DNA from: Leptolyngbya sp. Heron Island J
GTDB lineage: Bacteria > Cyanobacteriota > Cyanobacteriia > Phormidesmidales > Phormidesmidaceae
NCBI RefSeq assembly: GCF_000482245.1
Contig: NZ_AWNH01000105.1
Coordinates: 1-64,000, forward strand
Length of the DNA stretch: 64,000 bases
Direction: 5' to 3'
Position numbers and translations under genes: made by a program. Position 1 is the first letter of the stretch. Each line of letters opens with the position of its first letter. The notes under the pieces are model-generated. The model did not search any database and was not told where the DNA came from. It worked only from the letters and a program-made list of their open reading frames with translations. Positions 6,810 to 21,528 of the stretch are shown in pieces.

Positions 6810-7200
6810 GTGGGCTACCCTGTTTTAGAAAACTGGTCACCATCATTTTGTTGCATAATGGTTTGTGTAAGTCACTTCAAGGCTGACCGTTTTCAAGCGT
6901 ACATCGGTTGATTGCAGAGGGAAGGAATCCTTCCCATTGGTGCCAAGATCAGAGTCCGGTGATTCCTCATGATGTTTGGTATATATCGCTAGAAGTGATG
7001 CGTTACCAAACCTTTATTGAGAGTGATGCGAGATTTCAGTCACCGTAAAATCTCTGAATTCAGGAGTCTTAACAGAATGGCATAGTCTGGTGGAATGCCT
7101 GATTAAGTCTGGTGTTTTATTTCTTATCCTAGCAACAGTTTCCTCAGAAAAATCTACAGATAAAGTCAGGTTACTTCTTGGTAAGAATATATTATCAACC
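6810..7200. other. intergenic region, 391 bp
   Basis: This region should carry the promoter of the tpsA/tpsB pair. A near-perfect inverted repeat at 6919-6935 (GGGAAGGA and TCCTTCCC about a single base) could end the upstream transcript, although no T tract follows. The tpsA frame stays open upstream to 7090, but the signal peptide begins at 7201. Confidence 0.4.
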
Positions 7201-10485
<3,285 letters not shown>

Positions 10486-10541
10486 GAAAGAAGATATCCT
10501 GCTTGTCTTTGTCATTGATTAATGTCATTAGGTTCCTATCT

Positions 10542-12227
10542 ATGCGACAGAATATTCCTAAAATCACGCTTCTGCTTTCCATACTTTGCGTATCCCCAGT
10601 CCTTGCCCAACGCCCGAACCCGAACCAAGATCGCCTACCCCAATCCCTACCCAATCCTGAAGAAGCGATTCCACCTGCAACAACTCCTGAGATTACTCCA
10701 CCTGAATCTCCCACAGAGCAGCCGATACCAGATGAGGATGTCGTTATTGCTGTCAACCAAATTGAGGTATCAGGTAGTACTGTCTTTGGACCAGAAGACT
10801 TTGATCCGCTAGTCCAGCCTCTAGAAGGAAGAGACGTTTCTTTAGCAGAGCTACAGACCCTAGCTGATGCCATTACCCGTCTTTACTTTGATCAGGGCTA
10901 TCTCACGTCTCGGGCGATTCTACCAGAACAAGATATTACTGAAGGGTCTATTCTCATTCAGGTGATTGAAGGCAGTATTGGTAAGATTCAAATTGAAGGC
11001 AATCAACAAACTCAAAACCGTTATCTAGAGCAGCGCCTGGAGCTAGGAACCGATACCCCTGTTCAATTGGGGGCGATTGAAGATCAGCTCAGGTTATTAC
11101 AACTTAATCCTCTGTTTGACTCTGTAGAAGGCACCCTGCTCCCTGGAGAAAATCTGGGAGAAAGCACTCTGGCAGTCACCGTTGATGAGGCGAAACCGTT
11201 TAATGCCAATCTCTCCATCGATAACTATTCACCTCCCAGCGTCGGGGATGTGCGTACGGGCATCGGACTCAGTTACCGTAATCTGACCGGTTGGGGAGAC
11301 CAGATTTCCCTGGCTTATCACCGTTCCACCACTGGGGGCTCTAACCTGTACGATATCGGCTATCAAATTCCGTTAAATGCCATGGACGGAACGCTACAGC
11401 TACGGACGCTGATTAGCGATAGCACCCAAACCTTGACCAATCTGGATGTCAGCGGTGACTCTGAGTTTTATGAAGTTAACTTTCGTCAACCCCTCGTGCG
11501 TACACCACGAGAAGAACTGGCGCTCTCTTTAGGATTTGCCTATCGCGAAGGGCAGACCTTTTTGTTTGGTTCTCCTTTTCCCTTTGGCAGCGGCCCGGAT
11601 GCCAATGGCATTAGTCGTACCAGTGTGATTAAATTTGGTCAGGATTATATCCGGCGAGACCCCTCTGGCGCATGGGCATTTCAATCTCAATTCAGCCTGG
11701 GTACTAGCCTATTTAATGCTACCAATAATGGCTCCCCCACTCCCGATAGTCAATTTCTCAGTTGGCTAGGACAAGCTCAACGAGTCCAGCGGTTAGATAA
11801 CAACAATTTGCTGATTGTGCAAGCCAGCGGTCAACTAGCCTCTGATAGTTTACTGGCCTCAGAACAGTTTGTTATTGGGGGAGGGCAGTCCCTACGGGGA
11901 TATCGTCAAAATGTTCGTTCTGGGGATAATGGTTTTCGTCTATCAGTGGAAGATCGAATTACTGTTCTCCGCGATCAAGACACTCAAACATCTATCCTCC
12001 AAGTCATGCCATTCCTAGATATGGGATATGTATGGAATCAAAACGGCAATCCCAATGTAGAAGCCTCTCAGCGGTTTTTGGTGGGAGCAGGTCTCGGAGT
12101 TGCATATCAACCCTTGGAGGGGCTAAGTCTGCAACTTGATTATGGATTACCGTTAGTCGACCTGAGTGATCGAGGTGATAATGTCCAGGATGATGGTTTT
12201 TACTTTACTGTGAACTATGACTATTGA
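10542..12227 (+). CDS. TpsB-type outer-membrane transporter (ShlB/FhaC/HecB family)
   Basis: From ATG 10542 the protein has 561 residues; the frame also opens at a TTG inside the end of tpsA. It has a signal peptide (MRQNIPKITLLLSILCVSPVLAQ), then a Pro-rich stretch. A POTRA domain follows (about 60-185, with VNQIEVSGSTVFGPEDF and YFDQGYLTSRAILPEQ), then a FhaC-type beta-barrel ending in a strand with C-terminal aromatic residues (FYFTVNYDY). The conserved barrel motif region LRGYRQNVRSGDNGF is present. It would form the outer-membrane pore that exports the TpsA protein encoded just upstream. The 56-bp gap suggests one operon. Confidence 0.93.
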   Translation: MRQNIPKITLLLSILCVSPVLAQRPNPNQDRLPQSLPNPEEAIPPATTPEITPPESPTEQPIPDEDVVIAVNQIEVSGSTVFGPEDFDPLVQPLEGRDVSLAELQTLADAITRLYFDQGYLTSRAILPEQDITEGSILIQVIEGSIGKIQIEGNQQTQNRYLEQRLELGTDTPVQLGAIEDQLRLLQLNPLFDSVEGTLLPGENLGESTLAVTVDEAKPFNANLSIDNYSPPSVGDVRTGIGLSYRNLTGWGDQISLAYHRSTTGGSNLYDIGYQIPLNAMDGTLQLRTLISDSTQTLTNLDVSGDSEFYEVNFRQPLVRTPREELALSLGFAYREGQTFLFGSPFPFGSGPDANGISRTSVIKFGQDYIRRDPSGAWAFQSQFSLGTSLFNATNNGSPTPDSQFLSWLGQAQRVQRLDNNNLLIVQASGQLASDSLLASEQFVIGGGQSLRGYRQNVRSGDNGFRLSVEDRITVLRDQDTQTSILQVMPFLDMGYVWNQNGNPNVEASQRFLVGAGLGVAYQPLEGLSLQLDYGLPLVDLSDRGDNVQDDGFYFTVNYDY

Positions 12228-16327: not shown

Positions 16328-16984
16328 CTATAGCAATTGTCGGGGGTTAAATGCCGAATAATCCTGGATAATGTACGCAACAGCTGACTGACCTGTAAAC
16401 ATTGAGGCTGGCACTGAAGTTGTTAAGGCAACTGCTTTCATGCCTGCATTTTGAGCAGCTTCAATCCCAATCACACTGTCCTCAAAAACAATACAACACT
16501 CTGGCTGAATATCTAGCTGTTGGGCAACGGTCAAAAAGGTTTCAGGGTGAGGTTTACCCAATGTGACATCGTCGCCACCAACACAGGTAGTGAAATAGGC
16601 CGCAATGTCTAATCCATCGAGCACTAAGTCGATATTGGGCTGCATTGCTGACGTTCCCAGCGCCATAGTAATATCCAGAGATTGAGCTGCCTGTAAAAAA
16701 TCTCTGAGTCCATTGATAGGTTGAAGATGGGGTTGATATAGCTCTCGATAAAGAGATTCTTTCTGGTTAGCCAGGGTCGTCACAGCGGCATCGGATAGCT
16801 CTTCACCACAAATGCGGCGAATGCCTTGCTCAATGGTGCCATGGGTTTGCTGACATACCTCAGCCTCTGTCATTTCCATCCCCAGGCTTGACAGAAATTT
16901 TTGCCAAGCCTGCATATGAAAAGCCATATTGTCGACAAGTGTGCCATCCATGTCAAAGATGAAGGCAGCGCGCTGCTGAGGCAT
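16328..16984 (-). CDS. HAD-superfamily phosphatase/phosphomutase, beta-phosphoglucomutase-like
   Basis: A 218-residue HAD enzyme with the nucleophile motif FIFDMDGTLVDN (Asp11, general acid Asp13). A helical cap (about 18-90) follows, then motif II GTSA, the motif III Lys in LGKPHPETF, and motif IV FEDSVIGIEAAQNAGM. The cap type and motifs fit beta-phosphoglucomutase or sugar-phosphate phosphatases. Its ATG shares one base with the stop of the PTS IICBB gene (TAATG), so the two are translationally coupled. It probably acts on a sugar phosphate made by the PTS. Mutase or phosphatase activity cannot be decided by sequence. Confidence 0.87.
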   Translation of the reverse strand: MPQQRAAFIFDMDGTLVDNMAFHMQAWQKFLSSLGMEMTEAEVCQQTHGTIEQGIRRICGEELSDAAVTTLANQKESLYRELYQPHLQPINGLRDFLQAAQSLDITMALGTSAMQPNIDLVLDGLDIAAYFTTCVGGDDVTLGKPHPETFLTVAQQLDIQPECCIVFEDSVIGIEAAQNAGMKAVALTTSVPASMFTGQSAVAYIIQDYSAFNPRQLL

Positions 16985-18876
16985 TAAACACTTGCTCCAA
17001 GATGTTTGCTAATTTCTCCAGCGTATTGCTCAGCATTGAGCCCCACCACTAAATGCAATACCTGGTCCTGTATCCGCATCATGGCTTCCACACCGGCTGT
17101 TTTCAGGGCCTCTTCATTGATGGCATTAGGGTCAGTGATTTCCACCCGCAGTCGAGTCATGGCGACGGCAGCTACTGTGCGAATATTATTGGCACCCCCG
17201 AGAGCTGTAACCATACCCTGCGCTTTTTCAGCTGCAGCTGGATCGGCTGTCACTTCAGGTATAGCAGCAGCAACCATGGATTCTTCTGGTACGGGAGCAA
17301 CCACCTCATCAGCTTCAGGTCCAGCTGTTTTGAGATATTCAACCATATCCGTTTTGAGATTTTCAGAGCGAGGACCAAAAATAGCCTGGGCGTTGTTGCC
17401 TACCTGCAGTACTCCTGATGCACCCAGGGCTTTGAGGCGGGCAATGTTGACTTTGCCCATGTCTTTAACACCGATGCGCAGACGGGTAATGCAGGCATCG
17501 AGACTCTCGATGTTGCTACGTCCACCAAAAGCCAGAGTTAATTCTTTGGACATAGCGGCAGCATCCTGGGGCAAATTGCTCGCGAGTTCTTCGCTGTCCT
17601 CTTCGCGACCGGGGGTGATCAGGTTAAAACGCTTGATCACAAATCGGAAACTGAAATAGTAAAGAGCAGCAAACAGGGGACCAAAGGCGAGAATCAGCCA
17701 GACCTTGGTACCCAAGGCGTTAAAGAGAAAAAAGTCGATAAACCCGTGGGAAAAGGTAAAGCCCATGCGTCCGCCCAGGGTAACAAAGAGAAAGTCGGCA
17801 AACCCGGCTAGGACAGCATGGAGTAAAAATAAAACCGGCGCGACAAAGACAAATGAAAATTCGATAGGTTCGGTAATGCCGGTGAGAAAAGATGTCAGGG
17901 CAGCAGAAATCATGATGCCGCCAATTGCTTTGCGCTTCTTGGGCTTAGCACAGTGCCACATGGCCACCGCCGCCGCTGGCAGACCAAACATCTTGAACCA
18001 ATAGGCTCCACCGATAATACCGGCGGTGGGGTCTCCGGCAAAGAAGCGGGTGATGTCGCCTGTGACCGTTTCATTAGTAATGGGATCGGTAAAAGAGCCA
18101 ATCTGGAAAAAGAAGGGTACATTCCACACGTGGTGCAGGCCAAAGGGAATGAGCAGCCGTTCAATAAAGCCATAAATAGCCACGGTAACGGGAACGTTAT
18201 CCCCAGCAGCAGCGGCGTTGGCAAAGCTGTTAATGGCACCTCCCACCGGGGGCCAGATAAAGCTCATGAGGATACCGACGATGATGGCTGCGATCGCAGT
18301 AATAATCGGCACAAACCGCTTACCTGCAAAGAAGCCCAGGTATTGGGGTAACTTAATGCGGAAAAACCGATTGAACATATAGGCGGCCACACAGCCCATA
18401 ATCAAACCGCCAAACACCCCTGTATCCAGCGAGGGAATGCCCATAATGGGTTTGAGGGTGCTGGGATCGATGTTGGCAAACAGAATTGAGGAGACTCCCA
18501 GGGAGGCCAGGAACACCACAAAGCCAACAATGGCGGCCAGGGCAGAGACACCATCATTAGCGGTATAGCCGATGGCCACAGCCACGGCAAACAGAATGGG
18601 CAGATTGGCAAAGATGGCATCCCCTGAGGCTTTCATAATCTCTGCCAGGGGCGCAGGCAACCAGCCAAATTTGGCACTGGTTAAAACACCTTCTTGAATT
18701 TTCTGAATCTCAATCAGGCGAGCACTCCCCAGGCCCAACAAAATACCGGCCACAGGCAGCACTGAGACGGGCAGCATGAGCGCCTTGCCCATTTTTTGCA
18801 GGAGACCAAAGGCTTGGTTACGCCATTGTTGTTGTGACGGATGTTGTGACGGAGAAGAGGGGGCGATTGTGGTCAT
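16984..18876 (-). CDS. ptsG: PTS glucose-family enzyme IICBB (permease with two IIB domains)
   Basis: A 630-residue sugar permease and phosphotransferase of the glucose/GlcNAc PTS family. The IIC domain (about 20-400) has MGKALMLPVSVLPVAGILLG, GFIERLLIPFGLHHVWNVPF and GITEPIEFSFVF, very close to E. coli PtsG. The first IIB domain (about 435-515) carries the phosphorylated Cys462 in LDACITRLRI. After an acidic Ala/Pro/Glu linker a second IIB-like domain (about 545-628) has AVAMTRLRVEI, with Ala572 where Cys should be. It should take up and phosphorylate glucose, using phosphate from the IIA-HPr-EI protein encoded 99 bp upstream. The gene symbol reflects similarity, and GlcNAc remains possible. 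Confidence 0.93.
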   Translation of the reverse strand: MTTIAPSSPSQHPSQQQWRNQAFGLLQKMGKALMLPVSVLPVAGILLGLGSARLIEIQKIQEGVLTSAKFGWLPAPLAEIMKASGDAIFANLPILFAVAVAIGYTANDGVSALAAIVGFVVFLASLGVSSILFANIDPSTLKPIMGIPSLDTGVFGGLIMGCVAAYMFNRFFRIKLPQYLGFFAGKRFVPIITAIAAIIVGILMSFIWPPVGGAINSFANAAAAGDNVPVTVAIYGFIERLLIPFGLHHVWNVPFFFQIGSFTDPITNETVTGDITRFFAGDPTAGIIGGAYWFKMFGLPAAAVAMWHCAKPKKRKAIGGIMISAALTSFLTGITEPIEFSFVFVAPVLFLLHAVLAGFADFLFVTLGGRMGFTFSHGFIDFFLFNALGTKVWLILAFGPLFAALYYFSFRFVIKRFNLITPGREEDSEELASNLPQDAAAMSKELTLAFGGRSNIESLDACITRLRIGVKDMGKVNIARLKALGASGVLQVGNNAQAIFGPRSENLKTDMVEYLKTAGPEADEVVAPVPEESMVAAAIPEVTADPAAAEKAQGMVTALGGANNIRTVAAVAMTRLRVEITDPNAINEEALKTAGVEAMMRIQDQVLHLVVGLNAEQYAGEISKHLGASV

Positions 18877-18984
18877 AGGGGTAGAAAAAATTAGAACCGT
18901 AGGGGTTGGGCTGATGTAGGGGGCATCCGCACCCTGACAAATTGGGGAATATTCTTGTCTTGGGCATCTGTGCCCTTACAAATC
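18877..18984. repeat. paired GC-rich repeat in the PTS intergenic spacer
   Basis: Read on the minus strand, two similar stretches, TTTGTAAGGGCACAGATGCC (18965-18984) and TTTGTCAGGGTGCGGATGCC (18923-18942), lie between the EI and IIC genes. They resemble the dispersed 'TTGTAGGGGC' elements common in cyanobacterial genomes. The first copy overlaps the last codons and stop of the EI gene. They may affect stability or relative expression of the two PTS proteins. Confidence 0.5.
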
Positions 18985-21528
18985 CGGTAGTGGCACCAGA
19001 CTGCGCACCTCGGCAGCGGTTTCTAACCCCAGGGCCTGGGCTGCCAGTTTCTTACAATGGCTGAGTTTAAGAGAACGGACCTGGGCCTTAATGCTGGGAA
19101 TCATCGAAACGCTGACGCTGAGTTCTTTAACACCGAGGCCAATCAGGAGAGGAATGGCTTGAGGGTCGCTGCCAATACCGCCGCAGACGCCCACCCATTT
19201 GTCATGAAGACCCGCTCCTTTGACCGCATGACCAATTAATCGCAACACAGCTGGATGGAGACCGTCGACAAAAGGAGCCAATTTGGGATGGCCTCGATCC
19301 ATGGCCAGGGTGTACTGGGTGAGGTCATTGGTACCCACGGAGAAGAAATCAACTTCCTTGGCAAACTGCTCAGCCATAACGGCGGCGGCAGGCACTTCAA
19401 TCATAATACCCACCTCCACAGGTGGGAGGTTGAGGGCCTGGCGTTCTTCCTCTAGCATGGCTTTGGCCATGCGCAGTTCTTCGATGCGGCCAATCATGGG
19501 AAACATCACCCGCAGTTTACCTGCGGATGCCGAGCGCAAAATGGCCCGCAGCTGGGTGCGCTGTAGTTCAGGCTGGTCAAACCCTAAACGAATACCCCGT
19601 TCTCCCAAAAAGGGATTCTCCTCTGGAGCCATGGTCAGGTAGGGCAAAGGTTTGTCGCCACCAACATCAAGGGTGCGAATAATCATCGGTTTGTCGGGGC
19701 CTAACACTTCGGCAATGCTGCGATAAATGCCGGTTTGTTCATCTTCCGTGGGGGCCTGGGGCCGCTCCATAAAGATAAATTCAGTGCGCAGTAGACCGAC
19801 GCCTTCGGTCCCCAGGGAGACGGCTTCCTCCGCATCCTGCAGCCCCCCGATGTTGGCGACAATCTCAACCGGATGCCCATCCTGGGTAATGGCCGGTTCA
19901 AAGGCATTCTTGAGGTCAGCAGCCTGTTTGGCCTTTTGGTTGGCAATATGGGTTCGGGTGCGCTCAATCTCGTCAGCGGGGGCATTTAATCGGAGGGTGC
20001 CTTTAGTGCCATCTAAAATCACCGGGGTGCCATCGGCCAAGTCCAATACCCGTGGCTCTGCCCCAGCAATGGCTGGAATCCCCATGGACCGGGCCAAAAT
20101 GGCCACATGGGAGGTGGCTCCACCCGCCAGGGTGCAAAAGCCAACCACCCGCTCACGGTCTAGATTCGCCATGTCAGACGGGGTCAGGTCTTCTGCCAGT
20201 AAAATTGTATTGTGGGGATACTTTATCTCTGTGGCCTCAACACCTGTGAGAATTCGCAACACTCGCATGCCCACGTCACGAATATCATTGGCGCGCTCCG
20301 CCAGTAGCTCGTTGTTTAGCTGGGCCAGCTGATCCGCCTGGGTCGTGTAGGTTTGTTTCCAGGCAAAGTTTGCACTTTTACCTTTATTGATGGCGCTGGT
20401 GGCAATGTCCATTAACTCAGGGTCATCCAGGATTTCCTGGTGGGCGGCAAAAATAGCCGCTTTACCCGGATTGCCCTGACCGTGGACCTTAGCACGAATG
20501 GATTCAATCTCTAGGGCTGCTTTTGCGATCGCATCCTCCAACTTGCGTCGCTCTTTACCGGGTGATTCTCCCACTTCCTCAATTACCAAGGTTTGCTCAC
20601 GTACTCGATATGTGTTGCCTACAGTGAGGCCAGAGGACGCCGCCACCCCCAAAATAATGTTGGGATCATCAGACTTAGGCTGAGGTGGTGGGGCCTTGAG
20701 CGCCGACTGATCGATGCTGGCAGGTGCTGGAGCTGCCCCAGCTTCTCCTAACCCAGACCGCACCGCTTCAGTTAATTCCGTAATCGCCCCCTTAGCGTCT
20801 GAGCCAGTAGCTTCCAGGGTCACCGAGTCCCCATGGGCCACCTGCATGGCCATAATTGCCACAACACTTTTCCCATTGGCCCGGACACTCCCCCGTACCA
20901 GAGACACCTGAGACTGATACTGTTTAGCCAGATTGACCAAGACTGCCGCCGGACGGGCGTGCAGCCCTTGGGGGTTGCCAATAATAATGGGTTCTGACGT
21001 AACCTTCTCTCCAGTGGCCACCGCCAAGGGCGACTGGTCTGCCGCCAGCACCAGCTCTAAAACAATATCCTGTCCCGCATTCACCAGCCCTTGCTGAAAG
21101 ACAAATCCTGCAATGCGTTCGGTATTCGTAATAATGATTTGAGTCAATAAACTTTTGGCATGGAGAGCCACATAGTCAATATCAAACTCCAGCAGCGCGT
21201 CTCCTGATGTCACCCGGTCACCCAGATTCACCTGAGGTGAAAACCCTTCTCCTCGCAGCTCAACAGTATCCAACCCCACATGCATCAAAATCTCTATCCC
21301 TTCTGTAGTCTTTAGGGTCACAGCGTGATGGGAGGGATGAATCTGAATGATCTCACCGTCACAGGGGGCTCTGAGAATATTGGATATGGGGTCAACAGAA
21401 ATACCATCGCCCACCATCTTTTGAGCAAACACTGGATCGGGCACCGATTCAAGGGGCATCAAGTAGCCGGACAGGGGAGCCGTTAATCGTAGAGTGGTTT
21501 GCACTTGGGAGCGAGTGTCTAGGGCCAT
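18976..21528 (-). CDS. fused PTS phosphocarrier IIA(Glc)-HPr-enzyme I
   Basis: An 850-residue protein joining all soluble PTS steps. The IIA(Glc)/Crr-like domain (about 10-150) has active His83 in ILMHVGLDTVEL and partner His68 in SHHAVTL. HPr (about 170-255) has active His190 in GLHARPAA. Enzyme I (about 285-850) has the phosphohistidine His474 in GGATSHVAILARSMGIPAIAG, the PEP-site FLRTEF-like LLRTEFIFM, and VCGGIGSDPQAIPLL near the C-terminus. The same order is known in proteobacterial NagF-type proteins. It would pass phosphate from PEP to the IICBB permease encoded next. With it the window holds a whole PTS. HIP1 sites inside (near 20526) suggest long residence. Confidence 0.95.
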   Translation of the reverse strand: MALDTRSQVQTTLRLTAPLSGYLMPLESVPDPVFAQKMVGDGISVDPISNILRAPCDGEIIQIHPSHHAVTLKTTEGIEILMHVGLDTVELRGEGFSPQVNLGDRVTSGDALLEFDIDYVALHAKSLLTQIIITNTERIAGFVFQQGLVNAGQDIVLELVLAADQSPLAVATGEKVTSEPIIIGNPQGLHARPAAVLVNLAKQYQSQVSLVRGSVRANGKSVVAIMAMQVAHGDSVTLEATGSDAKGAITELTEAVRSGLGEAGAAPAPASIDQSALKAPPPQPKSDDPNIILGVAASSGLTVGNTYRVREQTLVIEEVGESPGKERRKLEDAIAKAALEIESIRAKVHGQGNPGKAAIFAAHQEILDDPELMDIATSAINKGKSANFAWKQTYTTQADQLAQLNNELLAERANDIRDVGMRVLRILTGVEATEIKYPHNTILLAEDLTPSDMANLDRERVVGFCTLAGGATSHVAILARSMGIPAIAGAEPRVLDLADGTPVILDGTKGTLRLNAPADEIERTRTHIANQKAKQAADLKNAFEPAITQDGHPVEIVANIGGLQDAEEAVSLGTEGVGLLRTEFIFMERPQAPTEDEQTGIYRSIAEVLGPDKPMIIRTLDVGGDKPLPYLTMAPEENPFLGERGIRLGFDQPELQRTQLRAILRSASAGKLRVMFPMIGRIEELRMAKAMLEEERQALNLPPVEVGIMIEVPAAAVMAEQFAKEVDFFSVGTNDLTQYTLAMDRGHPKLAPFVDGLHPAVLRLIGHAVKGAGLHDKWVGVCGGIGSDPQAIPLLIGLGVKELSVSVSMIPSIKAQVRSLKLSHCKKLAAQALGLETAAEVRSLVPLPDL

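Follow-up and report, generated by a model that had tools for sequence, protein, structure and literature searches.

The window analysed here comprises 64,000 nucleotides of the genome of Leptolyngbya sp. Heron Island J. Three adjacent genes on its minus strand encode a IIA-HPr-EI fusion protein, a PTS permease and a HAD hydrolase (Table 1). The start of the HAD gene overlaps the stop codon of the permease gene (TAATG), and by its position the HAD gene is part of the permease operon. The stretch between the fusion gene and the permease gene gave no sign of a structured RNA (z-score -0.07), and this idea was rejected. Elsewhere in the window, at 7090-12227, a candidate two-partner secretion pair was seen by eye, in which a large protein resembling filamentous haemagglutinin precedes an outer-membrane transporter.

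Table 1. Features of the permease operon in the window, and free cysteine-less IIB ORFs at other loci (L188 to L191).
Feature	Position	Strand	Basis
IIA-HPr-EI fusion, 850 aa, likely phosphate donor, just upstream of permease	18976..21528	-	PF00358, PF00381, PF05524, PF00391, PF02896
Permease gene, IIC-IIB1-linker-IIB*, 630 aa	16984..18876	-	ORF and profile matches
IIC membrane domain, about residues 20-425	17602..18819	-	PF02378, 274 bits; 8qsr, Z 38.5
IIB1, active, about residues 437-517	17326..17568	-	PF00367; 3bp3, Z 15.4; Cys in 53/53 relatives
Codon of Cys462, in LDACITRLRI of IIB1	17491-17493	-	
Linker, residues 518-546, poorly conserved	17239..17325	-	mean identity to relatives 41%
IIB*, cysteine-less second IIB, about residues 547-628	16993..17238	-	profile, alignment, model
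Codon of Ala572 in IIB*	17161-17163	-	
Codon of His608 in IIB*	17053-17055	-	
HAD hydrolase, beta-phosphoglucomutase family	16328..16984	-	TIGR02009, 164 bits (cut-off 153)
Free cysteine-less IIB ORF directly after IIA-HPr-EI gene, L188	12398-12805	+	
The same, L189	1006-1317	-	
The same, L190	1412-1882	-	
The same, L191	1384-1701	-	

The permease matches the glucose permease/PtsG model TIGR02002 with 675.9 bits (cut-off 591.8) over residues 21-516, and the phosphorylatable cysteine of PtsG-type IIB domains is present as Cys462 of IIB1. By sequence the permease is glucose-type, and GlcNAc or another sugar is a possible substrate. The fusion protein contains the active-site motifs EILMHVG, GLHARPA and GGATSHVAI; because IIA, HPr and EI thus have their phosphorylation motifs, the chain looks complete. 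The whole genome contains exactly two EIIB domains, one IIA_1 domain and one HPr domain, all in the permease operon, and the system is, as judged from the genome sequence, the only complete glucose-type PTS of Leptolyngbya sp. Heron Island J.

The initial annotation had described a normal IIB domain with Cys462 in LDACITRLRI and, behind it, a second IIB-like domain with Ala572 in the position of the cysteine. Both descriptions were confirmed in the minus-strand ORF of 630 amino acids. The conserved His608 and the IIA-HPr-EI fusion encoded next to the permease go beyond that annotation. The Pfam profile PF00367 matches the permease twice, and the C-terminal 106 amino acids alone still score 33.9 bits (E 2e-8, cut-off 27). 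The matches of IIB* are to glucose-class EIIB models, and no fructose-class model is among the matches listed. A model of IIB* (IIB2) built from a 51-row alignment (pLDDT 83) superposes on E. coli EIIB-Glc, both on 3bp3 (Foldseek E 2.3e-6, TM 0.77/0.87, rmsd 1.2) and on 1o2f_B (VIA Z 13.6, rmsd 1.1 over 77 residues); the best unrelated fold in the VIA list reached Z 6.5. The model of the full-length permease had a pTM of only 0.65, and, therefore, the placement of the domains was not read from it.

The TRLR motif of active IIB domains is retained in IIB* (AVAMTRLRVEI), and with this anchor the register of the cysteine-to-alanine exchange is unambiguous. No cysteine occurs anywhere after residue 462 of the permease; the phosphocysteine of EIIB domains is replaced by Ala572, and IIB* can therefore not take up phosphate on a cysteine. 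Thus, the second domain is an EIIB-fold domain, but not a cysteine phosphocarrier, and the earlier view of it as a dead IIB copy holds, from the sequence, as far as phosphate on a cysteine is concerned.

The exchange is conserved in the homologues. Cys462 is present in 53/53 non-redundant rows of the alignment and Ala572 in 52/52 rows that reach this position. Ten residues of IIB* are invariant in 51 relatives (A558, G560, N564, A572, T574, R575, R577, G595, H608 and G612), and the mean identity to the relatives is 78% for IIB1 and 58% for IIB*. His608 lies at the place of Gln497 in the adjacent active IIB1. In a wider table, 90 of the 93 second domains have Ala at the cysteine site and 87 have His at the His608 site; four single-domain ORFs that are IIB* also have Ala at the cysteine site. 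All 110 active IIB domains of the same table (86 first IIBs and 24 cysteine-bearing single IIBs) have Cys and Gln. For close pairs, the dN/dS values of IIB* were mostly 0.04-0.12 with a maximum of 0.24, and the maximum for IIB1 was 0.09. These values indicate that IIB* is under purifying selection, and a decaying domain was ruled out by dN/dS for the cyanobacteria. Decayed copies were found at four other loci (L127, L138, L167 and L168), and the Ala/TRLR surface is therefore not always needed.

In a tree of 122 IIB domains all 56 IIB* domains were on one side of a single branch (support 98/100). One IIB* clade was also obtained after removal of the two diagnostic columns and of 18 long or unstable rows (100/99); in a quick tree from which only the two diagnostic columns had been removed, the IIB* label needs four changes. 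The trees rest on 82-84 columns, which do not settle the branch order inside the IIB* clade. The clade joins the IIB* of PtsG-type permeases, of NagE-type permeases and of the free forms, and it is separate from the adjacent IIB1 domains. A recent local duplication of IIB1 was thus ruled out, and IIB* is an old domain in its own right rather than a newly made copy of the adjacent IIB.

The layout was found in Cyanobacteria (e.g., Leptolyngbya, Nodosilinea, Planktothrix, Stenomitos and Chroococcus), in beta- and alphaproteobacteria (Niveibacterium, Accumulibacter, Paraburkholderia and Azospirillum) and in NagE-type permeases of Pseudomonas-like genomes. Serratia-type PtsG is devoid of IIB*. In the cyanobacterial phylum the layout is uncommon, with 6 of 386 evenly drawn genomes. 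In the filamentous cyanobacterium CCP2 two IIC-IIB-IIB* permeases lie side by side (L058 5001-6878 and a 605-aa ORF just upstream). A HAD hydrolase gene is located near the IIB*-type permease not only in Leptolyngbya sp. Heron Island J, but also in Azospirillum (L122 6814-7482; L123 6659-7327).

The occurrence of IIB* was compared with the architecture of the phosphate donor in 398 evenly drawn Pseudomonadota genomes, 68 of which hold IIA_1. In 22 of these 68 genomes the IIA is part of an ORF of at least 840 amino acids, and all of these ORFs that were read comprised IIA, HPr and EI. IIB* or a C-terminal remnant of it was present in all 22 genomes with a fused donor. Four candidate exceptions to this rule (G681, G863, G757 and G912) were rejected, since each has extra C-terminal sequence when read; the score of this sequence is only 13.9 bits in G863, and the remnant in G912 was recognised by its place, its length and a His-Leu-Leu only. 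The other 46 genomes, one of which (G877) has a sub-threshold IIA match, mostly encode the IIA as a free protein (about 160-200 aa) or as part of the permease (about 620-690 aa). No IIB* was found in these 46 genomes: no ORF with two IIB matches was among the matches listed, a list that stops short of the weakest matches and that a strongly decayed IIB* could escape, and the seven small IIB ORFs read in them all have the cysteine. The Fisher p of 2.5e-18 for the co-occurrence ignores ancestry and overstates the evidence, because whole families share one layout.

Conversely, all 50 genomes that had been picked for a second IIB, 19 of them cyanobacterial, have a fused donor; in one of them, G036, it is read as a pair of overlapping ORFs. 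In a Leptolyngbya SIOISBB MAG (L187 2032-4625) IIA-HPr and EI of the donor are on overlapping ORFs, through a real split or a frameshift. In a Niveibacterium genome (G529 contig C27 12328-13179) a donor ORF of 1023 amino acids matches IIA twice, side by side.

In the trehalose operons of Pseudomonas-like genomes IIB* is encoded apart from the permease. Their permease is of the type IIB-IIC, with one N-terminal IIB and without IIB*. At L188, L189 and L190 the gene order is permease, glycoside hydrolase, porin-like gene, IIA-HPr-EI and free IIB*, and at L191 the PTS parts are placed in the same way; the hydrolase, porin and organism labels at these operons rest on inspection by eye of the sequences and of adjacent genes. 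At two further loci, L176 and L192, a free IIB* ORF lies between the fusion gene and the gene of a permease that already has an IIB*. IIB* can thus be detached from the permease and encoded next to the donor, and it is therefore most simply a partner of the donor.

These comparisons and the analogy to fructose systems suggest that IIB* serves the fused donor as a docking domain without being phosphorylated itself, with a probability of roughly 0.6. Phosphate would pass from PEP along the 850-aa fusion, via its EI and HPr to its IIA, then from this IIA to Cys462 of IIB1, and from there to the sugar in IIC. IIB* would bind the large fusion, perhaps via its IIA, perhaps via HPr or EI, and would hold it beside IIB1, so that the transfer to Cys462 would be spared the free diffusion of a 90-kDa partner. 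We infer the contact itself, the part of the fusion that is bound and any effect on the rate. The evidence for a link to the donor would also fit an IIB* that serves the fusion-driven system without touching the fusion, which could be the case. The initial annotation had offered three roles for the second domain, and the comparative evidence favours one of them, the binding of the IIA-bearing donor, over the tuning of the active IIB and the sensing of the phosphorylation state.

For tuning, IIB* would regulate the permease itself: it would compete with or shield IIB1 at IIC, or hold the dimer, and thereby adjust transport. Such a role is in line with the covalent attachment to the permease in most cases and with the retained TRLR motif, but the free gene beside the IIA-HPr-EI gene in the trehalose-type operons points to the donor, and IIB* is absent from permeases that are fed by a free IIA. 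Regulation of the permease is thus considered unlikely. As a sensor or signalling platform, IIB* would bind a regulator or the unphosphorylated donor and report the state of the PTS, as E. coli EIIB-Glc binds the repressor Mlc. The fold of IIB* indeed agrees with that of EIIB in the Mlc/EIIB crystal structure 3bp8 (Z 13.0). However, in the trehalose, GlcNAc and glucose operons looked at, no regulator gene was seen to travel with IIB*, and these operons have different neighbours, so that we regard signalling, too, as rather improbable.

The conserved histidine raises the question whether IIB* could be a phosphocarrier after all, with a relay from IIA via His608 of IIB* to IIB1. Its conservation agrees with such a relay, as it is retained even in decayed IIB* that have lost TRLR, but five IIB* have Asp at this site and one has Gln. 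In addition, free cysteine-bearing IIB ORFs at L193, L195 and L199 have His (VHAIFG) at the site at which Gln is usual in active IIBs; the His is therefore not special to IIB*, a new phosphate site is not favoured, and the relay is very improbable. Least credible of all is an IIB* that is merely left over from an old duplication and has no present function, for although some copies are degenerate, purifying selection in cyanobacteria, the ten invariant residues and the persistence of IIB* in different phyla and as a gene of its own speak against this view.

The single-origin, cysteine-less IIB* family could be a general accessory of glucose-class PTS driven by IIA-HPr-EI fusions, on the permease or free, that arose in parallel with the fructose IIB', and a dead IIB would be a usual companion of fused donors; this generalization is tentative and has somewhat less than even odds. 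The free-gene form, a protein of about 100 amino acids, makes the docking idea directly testable in a defined phosphotransfer assay.

Among the closest known systems is E. coli PtsG (IICB-Glc), with which IIC and IIB1 of the permease align over their whole length. It differs in having a single IIB, and it takes its phosphate from a free IIA (Crr). A fused donor beside a glucose-superfamily permease is described for the NagF/NagE GlcNAc PTS of Ralstonia eutropha, with EI, HPr and IIA on the fusion; the permease is described there as EIIBC (PMC3222305), and the likeness is to this description. In the nag operon of a Pseudomonas-like genome (L177) the NagE-type permease carries an IIB*.

As far as descriptions can be likened, FruA IIB' of E. 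coli and others is similar to IIB*. It is also an extra IIB, and its donors are fusions of IIA with HPr and, in some species, also with EI (PMC2405797). Both IIBs of the fructose permease are needed for full activity (PMC2405797), and the extra one is reported to serve contact between proteins rather than phosphotransfer (PMC6872149). In contrast, FruA IIB' is of the fructose class, whereas IIB* and the IIA of its donor are of the glucose class, and IIB* is C-terminal or a free gene. The parts are thus known; a dead IIB of the glucose class, C-terminal or free and tied to IIA-HPr-EI fusions, is apparently new, as no glucose-class double IIB was found described in the literature searched, the scope of which excluded most subscription journals, so that a prior description is possible. 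According to a paper of 2019, an extra contact IIB is confined to the fructose permease (PMC6872149), whereas glucose-class permeases of Cyanobacteria and Pseudomonadota carry an extra dead IIB, and according to a survey of 2008 the Cyanobacteria are without PTS (PMC2405797), whereas several of them hold a complete-looking PTS.
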